Of a stretch of 64,000 nucleotides of DNA, positions 51,740 to 54,789 are shown piece after piece (positions within the stretch are counted from its first letter, which is position 1; every line of letters starts with the position of its first letter). Source of the stretch: Moritella yayanosii (GTDB lineage Bacteria > Pseudomonadota > Gammaproteobacteria > Enterobacterales > Moritellaceae); assembly GCF_900465055.1 (NCBI RefSeq), contig NZ_LS483250.1, forward strand, positions 3,472,001 to 3,536,000, given 5' to 3'. Both the position numbers and the translations under genes were made by a program. The notes below the pieces were generated by a model. The model was not told the DNA's origin. It made no database searches and was given only the letters and a program-made list of their open reading frames with translations.

Positions 51740-51864
51740 TTCATCAAAAAACTGTAAAATACCGCCCTTGACTAAATTTTTACCACTTCACCGGTTATTT
51801 TATTTCCCCTACAGGGATATTTTTAGGATAATAGCTAATCGCACTAAATTTCGTGAGCGCTAGC

Positions 51865-54789
51865 ATGGCCGACAAACGTCAAAATCAGTTTCAAAATCAG
51901 TTTTCAAAAGATAAAAATAGAAAAGACAGTGCTGTTGATGCGCTAAAAGTGCCGCCGCATTCGTTTGAGGCGGAGCAATCGGTGTTAGGTGGCTTATTCA
52001 TTGATAATGAAGCCTGGGATCGTGTAACCGAATTTGTGGTGGCGAAAGATTTTTACAGTCGCCCACATCAGCTTATCTTCGAAGCAATGGGGAAGCTGGT
52101 GGATCAGCATATCCCGCTGGACATTATTACCGTTTCCGAATGGTTAGATAACGAAGAACTGCTCGATGATGCGGGTGGTTTTGCGTACCTGGGCGATATT
52201 ACTAAAAATACCCCAAGTGCATCGAACATTACCGCTTATGCCAACATTGTGCGTGAGCGTGCGATAATACGTGAACTTATTGCGGTTGCCAATGATATCA
52301 GTGAGTCAGGTTATGAGCCACAAGGGCGTAAAAGTACCGACCTACTTGATTTAGCTGAAAGTAAAGTATTCCAAATTGCAGAATCAAGACAGAGCGAAGG
52401 CCAGGGCCCAAAGAACTTAGAAAGCGTACTGCAAGAAACCGTTGATAAAATCGAAGCGCTTTACCAAACCCCACATGACGGTGTGACCGGGGTTGCGTCT
52501 GGTTATCATGCTCTTGATTCGATGACGACTGGCTTCCAACCGTCTGATTTGATTATTATCGCAGCCCGGCCATCCATGGGAAAGTGTATTGTTTCTGGCT
52601 CGAAAATCTTAGATCCATTAACCGGTCAATTGAATAGTATTGACGATCTTGTTACATGCGAGCAAGCAAACCTAGCCACAGTTAATAACGATTACACACT
52701 ATCTATCACTCAAGCATCGGCATTTGTTGATGATGGTATTAAACCGGTATTCCGCGTTAAAACAGCATTAGGTCGAGAAATATCGACGACACTGACGCAT
52801 CCGTTTTTAACCGGGAATGGCTGGCGACCTCTGGCAGAAATTACGGTTGGTGAAAAAGTTGCGGTACCACGCGAGTTACCTTATTTTGGTGATAAAGCGA
52901 TGCCTGAGCATGAAGTTAAAGCATTAGCGTATTTTATTGCTGACGGTGGTACGACACAATCTAATCCTATGTTTACCAATGTGAACCCTGTGATTAGTCA
53001 GGATTTCATCAATGCCATTGAGCAATTTGATGCAGTGTCAGTGAAACCGGTATTAGCAGAAGATAGAACACCAGCATTTAGAGTCAGCGCCGAATCGTCA
53101 CAAGTTGAAGCGTATAGAAGCCAATTTGCAACATTGCTAACGCAGTCCATGACAGCTCAAAATATCACCGGTAATGATCTTGCTGGGCTATTATCGGTTA
53201 GTAAGGCGAGTATCAGCCAGTGGTGTAATGGTCATTGTGTGCCAGAAAAAAGTACATTAACGGTATTACTCGAAAAACTTAATTTTACATTAGCTGATGC
53301 AGGCGTACCAAGTTATGCTGCAATGGCGAAGAACAGTATCAATAGCGTGACACAATGGTTAATCGCACATGCTGTATGGCATAAAAGTGCATTAGAAAAA
53401 GCCATCCCTGACGTGGTTTATTGTTTACCAAAATTACAATTAGCATTATTCATCAATCGTCTATTTAGCTGTGATGGTAGTGCCTTTGTTCAAGCCAATA
53501 ACCAAGCACGATTAAGTTACTCTTCTTCGAGTTATGCACTGGTTCATGGCTTACAACACCTATTACTGCGTTTCGGCATTATTGCTAAAGTGCGTGAAAA
53601 AACAAGTAACTATGATGGTGCCACTCCGTACGAATTAGAGGTGCTTGATCAGCAAAGTATCCAACTATTCATCAGTGAAATCGGTATTTTTTCGAAAGAA
53701 CAAGCACTCGAAAAAGTATTACAGTTATTAGCGGATAAAGCGCAGCACACCAATAAAGACACCATGCCTGAGTCTGTCAATCAGTATATTTTGCTGAAAA
53801 AAGCGGACCGCTCGTGGCGAGAGTTGTTTATTGCAGCAGGTAAAGCCTATCCAGAGGGTTATAACCCTCATCTGCACGGTGAAAATGCCAGAGGCATATC
53901 TCGTCGTCGCTTAGCTTTGTTTGCTGAATTATTACAAGATGATTATCTTCAACAGTTAAGTCTATCAGACTTATACTGGGATGAAATTGTTGCGATTGAG
54001 CCTCAAGGTGATAAGCAGGTTTATGACTTGACTGTGCCAGACACGCATAATTTTATTGCTGAAGATATTTGTATTCATAACACGACGTTCGCGATGAATT
54101 TATGTGAGCACGCGGCGTTGAATGAAGATAAACCCGTGGTTATTTTTTCGCTGGAAATGCCGGCAGAACAGATCATGATGCGTATGCTCGCGTCACTGGG
54201 TAAAATTAACCAAACTAAAGTACGTACTGGTCAATTAGATGATGATGATTGGGCGCGTTTATCTGCGACCATGAAGAGCATGCTGGAACAGGGGAAAATG
54301 TACATTGATGATAGTTCTGGTTTGACCCCGACTGAAGTACGTTCGCGCTCACGTCGTATTGCCCGTGATCACGGTGGTATCAGCATGATCATGATTGACT
54401 ACTTACAACTTATGCGCGTACCAGCGTTAAGTGAAAACAGAACCTTGGAAATTGCCGAAATTTCTCGTTCATTAAAATCGCTGGCCAAGGAACTTAAATG
54501 TCCTGTGATTGCCTTATCACAGTTGAACCGCTCGTTGGAACAACGCGCCGATAAACGTCCGGTTAACTCGGATCTTCGTGAATCAGGCTCTATTGAGCAG
54601 GATGCCGATTTAATTATGTTTATTTATCGTGATGAAGTTTATAACGATGATTCGTCAGATAAAGGCACTGCCGAAATCATTATCGGTAAACAACGTAACG
54701 GCCCGATTGGTAAAATAAGATTGACCTTTAACGGTGAATTCTCGCGCTTTGATAACTTCACTGGTCCTGCTTATGATGATGATTATTAA
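51865..54789 (+). CDS. dnaB: replicative DNA helicase DnaB, interrupted by an in-frame intein
   Basis: DnaB unwinds DNA at the replication fork. The single frame encodes 974 residues from the ATG at 51865 (978 from a GTG at 51853), twice the family length. Removing the 499-residue intein leaves a 475-residue helicase (471 in E. coli): N-terminal domain (HSFEAEQSVLGGLFIDNEAWD), linker, then the RecA-like ATPase with Walker A split as ARPSMGK | TTFAMN, Walker B MIMIDYLQLM, and the ALSQLNRSLEQR loop. Without splicing the P-loop is broken, so splicing must be required for activity. It is followed 9 bases later by alr, as in Vibrio. Confidence 0.97.
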   Translation: MADKRQNQFQNQFSKDKNRKDSAVDALKVPPHSFEAEQSVLGGLFIDNEAWDRVTEFVVAKDFYSRPHQLIFEAMGKLVDQHIPLDIITVSEWLDNEELLDDAGGFAYLGDITKNTPSASNITAYANIVRERAIIRELIAVANDISESGYEPQGRKSTDLLDLAESKVFQIAESRQSEGQGPKNLESVLQETVDKIEALYQTPHDGVTGVASGYHALDSMTTGFQPSDLIIIAARPSMGKCIVSGSKILDPLTGQLNSIDDLVTCEQANLATVNNDYTLSITQASAFVDDGIKPVFRVKTALGREISTTLTHPFLTGNGWRPLAEITVGEKVAVPRELPYFGDKAMPEHEVKALAYFIADGGTTQSNPMFTNVNPVISQDFINAIEQFDAVSVKPVLAEDRTPAFRVSAESSQVEAYRSQFATLLTQSMTAQNITGNDLAGLLSVSKASISQWCNGHCVPEKSTLTVLLEKLNFTLADAGVPSYAAMAKNSINSVTQWLIAHAVWHKSALEKAIPDVVYCLPKLQLALFINRLFSCDGSAFVQANNQARLSYSSSSYALVHGLQHLLLRFGIIAKVREKTSNYDGATPYELEVLDQQSIQLFISEIGIFSKEQALEKVLQLLADKAQHTNKDTMPESVNQYILLKKADRSWRELFIAAGKAYPEGYNPHLHGENARGISRRRLALFAELLQDDYLQQLSLSDLYWDEIVAIEPQGDKQVYDLTVPDTHNFIAEDICIHNTTFAMNLCEHAALNEDKPVVIFSLEMPAEQIMMRMLASLGKINQTKVRTGQLDDDDWARLSATMKSMLEQGKMYIDDSSGLTPTEVRSRSRRIARDHGGISMIMIDYLQLMRVPALSENRTLEIAEISRSLKSLAKELKCPVIALSQLNRSLEQRADKRPVNSDLRESGSIEQDADLIMFIYRDEVYNDDSSDKGTAEIIIGKQRNGPIGKIRLTFNGEFSRFDNFTGPAYDDDY
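52585..54081 (+). other. DnaB intein with LAGLIDADG homing endonuclease, 499 residues
   Basis: The intein begins with Cys1 (TGT at 52585, CIVSGSKILD) and ends with His-Asn (54076-54081), followed by Thr as the +1 extein residue. Splicing block B is TTLTHPFL (Thr and His around 52789-52800), and block F is QVYDLTVPDTHNFIAE before the terminal HN. Endonuclease motifs are LAYFIADGG (52924-52950, intein residue 114) and LALFINRLFSCDG (53440-53478, residue 286); both aspartates are kept, so homing may be active. An HTH-like segment lies at 53149-53290. The insertion is in the Walker A loop directly after the P-loop lysine. Confidence 0.95.

Follow-up and report, generated by a model that had tools for sequence, protein, structure and literature searches.

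A predicted class 1 homing intein in the Walker A loop of Moritella DnaB, with a Cro/C1-type domain between its LAGLIDADG repeats

The dnaB gene described here lies in the window, the whole stretch of 64,000 nucleotides that was analysed, which corresponds to positions 3472001-3536000 of a Moritella genome consisting of a single contig of 4,433,651 bases. Members of Moritella are known from cold and deep-sea habitats. The dnaB frame is open throughout to position 54789, encoding 978 amino acids from a GTG at 51853 or 974 from an ATG at 51865, and Pfam finds in it the DnaB N domain and a DnaB_C match that is split by an insert. The features of the locus, with the basis of each in brackets, are listed below.

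51853..54789, forward strand: dnaB precursor frame, comprising N-extein, intein and C-extein (open reading frame; matches to DnaB N domain, DnaB_C and TIGR00665)
51865..52584, forward strand: N-extein of DnaB counted from the ATG, with the C-terminal end RPSMGK carrying the Walker A lysine (frame, DNA read, Pfam)
52585..54081, forward strand: intein of 499 amino acids, from Cys1 to His498-Asn499 (frame, Pfam, NCBIfam, alignment)
52585..52875, forward strand: Hint splicing domain, N-terminal half (residues 1-97), with Cys1 and block B T69xxH72 (Pfam, NCBIfam, phmmer, alignment, AF2 model)
52921..52947, forward strand: LAGLIDADG motif 1, residues 113-121, ALAYFIADG, with D120 (alignment and model; the window copy has no Pfam match of its own here)
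53095..53319, forward strand: helix-turn-helix domain of the Cro/C1 type, spanning residues 171-245 and flanked by the two LAGLIDADG repeats (Pfam HTH at 180-237 below cut-off, family profile, model)
53452..53478, forward strand: LAGLIDADG motif 2, residues 290-298, INRLFSCDG, with D297 (Pfam, alignment)
53770..53961, forward strand: helical accessory domain, residues 396-459, at the known ACD position between the endonuclease and the C-terminal Hint half (model, profiles; HTH-like by weak matches in relatives only)
53962..54081, forward strand: Hint splicing domain, C-terminal half with blocks F and G, carrying D481, H498 and N499 (Pfam, NCBIfam, alignment, model)
54082..54786, forward strand: C-extein of DnaB, starting TT, with the Walker A threonine as the +1 nucleophile (frame, DNA read, Pfam)

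The N-terminal junction (52579-52587) reads GGA AAG / TGT, encoding G K / C, and the C-terminal junction (54076-54087) reads CAT AAC / ACG ACG, encoding H N / T T. The insert adds 499 residues between the lysine (52582-52584) and the threonine (54082-54084) of Walker A. The original prediction of 499 residues that start with Cys, end with His-Asn and are followed by Thr, placed between the GK and TT of the P-loop, is confirmed by the frame and the junction DNA and is no product of chance, and the spliced length of 475 residues that it gave agrees with the count from the ATG (479 residues from the GTG).

The 499-residue segment matches Pfam Intein_splicing with an E-value of 4e-22, and both NCBIfam models, intein_Nterm (3.5e-6) and intein_Cterm (2e-7), exceed their cut-offs, so that the proposed comparison with intein profiles came out positive. 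The Pfam splicing model finds no other intein in this genome. Pfam LAGLIDADG_3 (E 3e-18, residues 286-367) covers the second repeat only in the window copy, and repeat 1 is assigned from alignment and model. In an alignment of eleven inteins of the P-loop site, nine full-length (494-499 aa) plus G262 and G675, the residues C1, T69, H72, D120-G121, D297-G298, D481, H498 and N499 are invariant in all nine full-length members, the window's included; the claim that both splicing blocks and both LAGLIDADG motifs are intact thus holds for the key residues. Cys1, T69-H72, H498-N499 and Thr+1 are those of class 1, and the Hint fold is recovered by both Pfam and the AF2 model. The hallmarks of class 3 are missing: residue 1 is Cys, and Asp481 occupies the aligned block F position. 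Its residues place the element in class 1, and its LAGLIDADG endonuclease has two repeats and looks intact, both catalytic aspartates (D120 and D297) being present in 9/9. It is a complete and probably active intein of a familiar type, inserted at an established hotspot; the insert very probably cuts itself out of DnaB after translation.

Nearest by sequence among solved splicing domains are the Ssp and Npu DnaB and Mtu RecA inteins, which have the same Hint fold as the Moritella intein and whose solved forms are splicing domains without endonuclease. The cyanobacterial DnaB inteins (Ssp, Npu) occupy the other DnaB site. Five AlphaFold (AF2) models were built from nine sequences, with mean pLDDT ranging from 67.7 to 85.9; the best has a mean pLDDT of 85.9 and a pTM of 0.82. 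When it was compared with the PDB, the top folds were intein endonucleases: TliVMA (7qss; E 5e-17, TMq 0.58), PI-PfuI, PI-TkoII, PhoVMA and PI-SceI. An accessory domain of the archaeal VMA type is indicated by helices within residues 396-459 of the model and by the family profile A1, which aligns residues 380-493 to 7qss. Archaeal TliVMA, PI-PfuI and PI-TkoII share a layout of Hint domain, LAGLIDADG endonuclease and an accessory domain before the C-terminal Hint half; compared with them, the Moritella intein has a Cro/C1-type domain between the LAGLIDADG repeats in addition. The TliVMA intein also sits at a P-loop site, and the accessory domains of both TliVMA and PI-TkoII are described as HTH-like in PMC8966425.

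Within Moritella, presence is patchy: the intein was found in 2 of 11 genomes, the window genome and G001. A scan for close relatives returned as its sole match Moritella dasanensis ArB 0140, the record of G001, 90% identical over 499 residues. The dnaB C-extein is present in 11/11 genomes at 98-100% identity, and the intein-free alleles that the original prediction suggested looking for do exist, since all nine other dnaB genes have an uninterrupted site with gapless flanks RPSMGK-TTFAMNLCEHAALN (RPSMGK-TTFAM). In a tree of the dnaB-alr region, the nearest relatives of the window (G003 and G006) are without the intein, and carrier G001 clusters with moderate support with intein-free G005, G002 and G007; the two carriers are not mutual nearest relatives.

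Matches were found in 3 of 394 genomes of the order sample (the two Moritella and G262) and, at E <= 0.001, in 28 of 369 genomes of the class sample. Nine of these 28, the window included, share the GK/C...HN/T site; of the remaining 19, seven (G425, G451, G494, G509, G527, G565, G713) show the flanks of a second DnaB site, and the rest lie in other proteins or have no called site. The same-site relatives are G533, G745, G650, G708, G539, G526, G657 and G675 from the class and G262 from the order. The seven full-length gammaproteobacterial DnaB P-loop inteins are 42-46% identical to the window's and class 1 by residues. The two LAGLIDADG Asp-Gly pairs are gone from both G262 (429 aa) and G675 (288 aa), whose endonucleases are degenerate. 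At the phylum level, 154 of 398 genomes match profile A1, with a best E-value besides the window of 2e-8; among the matches listed, the hits are short and mostly at positions 170-250, like ordinary Cro/C1 regulators, a few lie over splicing or endonuclease parts, and a further full-length member is absent. In Gammaproteobacteria, this single position in an essential helicase is seen in a series of homing-cycle states (active-looking, degenerate, mini and empty), and the element points to class 1 inteins, besides those of class 3, as users of the DnaB P-loop site. A DnaB intein from an Euzebya pacifica plasmid occupies the same site but has Ser at +1; it is class 1 by residues, about 28% identical to the window's and without the Cro/C1-type domain. 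Its host, a DnaB-like helicase at 721-4038 of L175 (plasmid pEDY32-46I, NZ_CP031166.1), has two apparent inteins, one in the P-loop (C...HN/S) and one at an SGALEQDA site. The G708 DnaB (L036, L060) likewise has apparent inteins at the P-loop site and at an HN/SGAIEQDAD site.

Viral contigs were scanned with the nine-member alignment and two peptide patterns, giving 108 relatives, of which 80 were kept (61 full-length in frame, 19 partial). Among the 46 different flanks of the 61 full-length relatives, 39 place the intein immediately after GK and have Thr or Ser at +1. Several of these 39 sites are not in ATPases, and the two that were checked (L109, L137) are in tail tape measure proteins. 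This suggests that the lineage follows a short GK/T(T/S) context rather than P-loop function, which would favour selfish spread over host regulation. Intein positions in the P-loop of phage terminases, and kinship between phage and mycobacterial DnaB inteins, are described in PMC5050341. The inteins of the two tape measure proteins, which have no P-loop, lie at a GK/TT-like motif (L109 4001-5038; L137 4001-5116), and further tape measure cases were recognized by eye in L117, L124, L134, L135, L140 and L142.

Residues about 171-245 of the intein, between the two LAGLIDADG repeats, form helices of the Cro/C1-type helix-turn-helix. In the window copy, the HTH matches are below the Pfam cut-offs (HTH_31, 24.6 of 27 bits; HTH_3, 19.7 of 23). 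HTH_3 matches all nine full-length members at E <= 1, with a best E-value of 1e-11 and weakly in some; in single scans of six full-length members from outside Moritella, its cut-off was exceeded in four and missed in two, and single Pfam scans of the degenerate G262 and G675 gave no HTH match. The family profile matches solved Cro/C1 domains over 171-245, for example the P22 C2 repressor. A profile of the Cro/C1 stretch matched none of the 61 full-length viral relatives and none of four named-record proteins, Euzebya DnaB among them. The profile of the accessory domain (396-459) also matched none of the 61; it matched Euzebya and gave weaker matches to Nocardia and to two relatives from the class. 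The Cro/C1-type insert is an uncommon structural feature of an otherwise ordinary intein. In a full-text literature search of partial coverage, no DnaB intein was described as having a Cro/C1 domain between its LAGLIDADG repeats, and the insert might tentatively be regarded as a new structural detail.

Selection was assessed between the two carriers. By a simple counting method that is imprecise at high dS, the intein has dS 0.70 and dN 0.057, and the 50 other window genes have a median dS of 0.79 (range 0.15-1.56) and a median dN of 0.043; this gene set is the 54 ORFs minus three small overlapping or doubtful ones (3986, 7422, 10069), with dnaB split in three, and the other 50 all have a counterpart. 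By region, dN/dS was 0.12 and 0.03 for the splicing halves, 0.05 and 0.06 for the LAGLIDADG halves, 0.09 for the linker, 0.04 for the C-terminal accessory domain and 0.08 for the whole endonuclease part. The Cro/C1-type domain, at 0.19, is the fastest-evolving part of the intein between these carriers. The endonuclease was kept under constraint during host-gene divergence, and its dN/dS of 0.08 is most simply explained by recurrent homing.

Taken together, these data make it very likely that the insert is a selfish class 1 homing intein at site b that splices out to give a 475-residue DnaB and homes into empty dnaB alleles, with no need of a regulatory role. Homing is supported by the patchy presence in 2/11 genomes, the joined sites in 9/9, the carriers not being nearest relatives, the catalytic Asp in 9/9 and the low dN/dS. 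In the proposed mechanism, the intein at the P-loop site of chromosomal Moritella dnaB, of class 1 and equipped with a LAGLIDADG homing endonuclease of two repeats, would be translated whole within its precursor. The Hint domain would then excise the intein by the Cys1 / Thr+1 / Asn499 route, rebuilding the GK-TT Walker A loop and yielding a normal 475-residue DnaB, as the residues predict. The excised intein would act as a site-specific endonuclease that cuts intein-free dnaB at the uninterrupted GK/TT and would spread through gene conversion. Additional DNA contacts, which set or widen target choice, are probably made by the Cro/C1-type domain and by the helical domain that precedes the C-terminal Hint half. 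The element would be kept as a selfish one, and the explanation requires no regulatory role in the host.

As a more tentative proposal, about which we are rather doubtful, this gammaproteobacterial clade of DnaB P-loop inteins may have taken up a phage-repressor-like (Cro/C1) targeting module besides the usual accessory domain; the module may retune target choice, or the excised intein may bind and regulate DNA near dnaB. A phage 434 repressor grafted onto TliVMA by hand nearly abolished cleavage of lambda DNA, as stated in PMC8966425. If the Cro/C1-type insert does set target choice, it would be a natural counterpart of that graft.

DnaB function very probably depends on splicing, because 499 residues separate the Walker A Lys from the Thr and because the only close paralogue found is without the Walker A lysine; on these two points, the earlier claim that helicase activity depends on splicing gains support by inference. 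DnaB_C matches three places in the genome, and the DnaB_C profile search found no second full dnaB there. A DnaB_C-only frame (G000:C1:1406479; 305 aa, DnaB_C E 2e-49) was considered as a back-up helicase, but its Walker A reads GRPLNHSDT, and for want of the lysine it is an unlikely substitute. The third match is weak, RadA-like by eye, and has an intact P-loop. The paralogue (L002, G000:C1:1406479-1407240) sits downstream of a 206-aa frame that is phage-repressor-like by eye.

That the insert no longer works as an intein, or is kept in the protein as a domain and never spliced out, is hardly credible, given the intact and conserved block residues, the dN/dS of the splicing halves, a C-extein 98-99% identical to that of intein-free alleles and the finding of no other DnaB with a Walker A lysine in the genome. 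The original prediction also held that splicing could gate replication, for example through the redox state of Cys1, and this part is unsupported. As a regulatory switch, the intein would hold back DnaB splicing via Cys1 under oxidation or stress. Its location in the P-loop of an essential helicase and its Cys1 nucleophile suit such a role, and C496, fourth from the intein end with a counterpart in 7/11 alleles, is a possible partner of Cys1, the oxidation of which is possible in principle. The precedent is found in mycobacteria, where P-loop inteins respond to oxidants, M. smegmatis DnaBi1 and, in vitro, that of M. leprae, according to PMC6195587 and PMC8557812. These inteins (DnaBi1 and M. 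leprae DnaBi; site b) have the same insertion point and use the P-loop Ser/Thr as +1 (PMC6195587). However, they are endonuclease-free class 3 mini-inteins, unlike the Moritella intein, a class 1 element that has Cys1 and a complete endonuclease. Class 3 mini-inteins are described there as having no residue-1 nucleophile and no endonuclease and as using an internal block F cysteine (Cys118), which in DnaBi1 forms a disulfide with Cys48 (PMC6195587, PMC8557812). Because the oxidant-sensitive mycobacterial inteins act via this internal cysteine, the redox analogy fails at the level of mechanism: D481 stands at the presumed block F counterpart of the class 3 cysteine in the alignment, and the Cys118-Cys48 pair is without counterpart in the Moritella intein, where blocks A and B have a single cysteine between them, C25, which G001 lacks. 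Among the 23 PDB sequences listed by phmmer, none carries a mycobacterial DnaB intein label. M. smegmatis DnaB has a second intein, of full length, which is spliced out completely when expressed and appears non-conditional (PMC8557812). With 9/11 Moritella genomes managing without the intein, and homing accounting for the conserved endonuclease, a regulatory switch is improbable.

The selfish homing intein is compatible with two histories, compared here with one genome per species. An intein ancestral to Moritella and now being lost, rather than spread by homing among species, is given close to, but short of, an even chance. Its dS lies near the 50-gene median between the carriers, which is equally consistent with old shared ancestry followed by many losses and with two gains, and a degenerate relative occupies this site in G262, a genome of the order. 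Against this, at least about six losses would be needed (counted by eye on the partly resolved dnaB-alr tree), each of them exact at the amino-acid level, and the strong purifying selection on the endonuclease is unexpected if it was merely inherited. A homing cycle combining close-relative transfer with inheritance covers both facts. The class-wide intein and extein trees have too weak a resolution for dating transfers, and the extein identities from their fixed-length cuts are unreliable and were set aside. A recent transfer between the two carriers is not supported, as the intein dS falls inside the range of the 50 other genes. The window's dnaB differs from those of G003 and G006 chiefly between -180 and +480 around the site, but a co-conversion tract there was rejected: intein-free G003 and G006 differ from each other by 0.9% upstream and by 7.8% and 7.1% around the site, and the same rise between two intein-free genomes means that this stretch is simply more variable. 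No intein-specific co-conversion footprint was found among the Moritella dnaB genes compared. The dnaB segments 52405-52584 and 54082-54561 are more variable than the upstream part among Moritella, intein-free genomes included.
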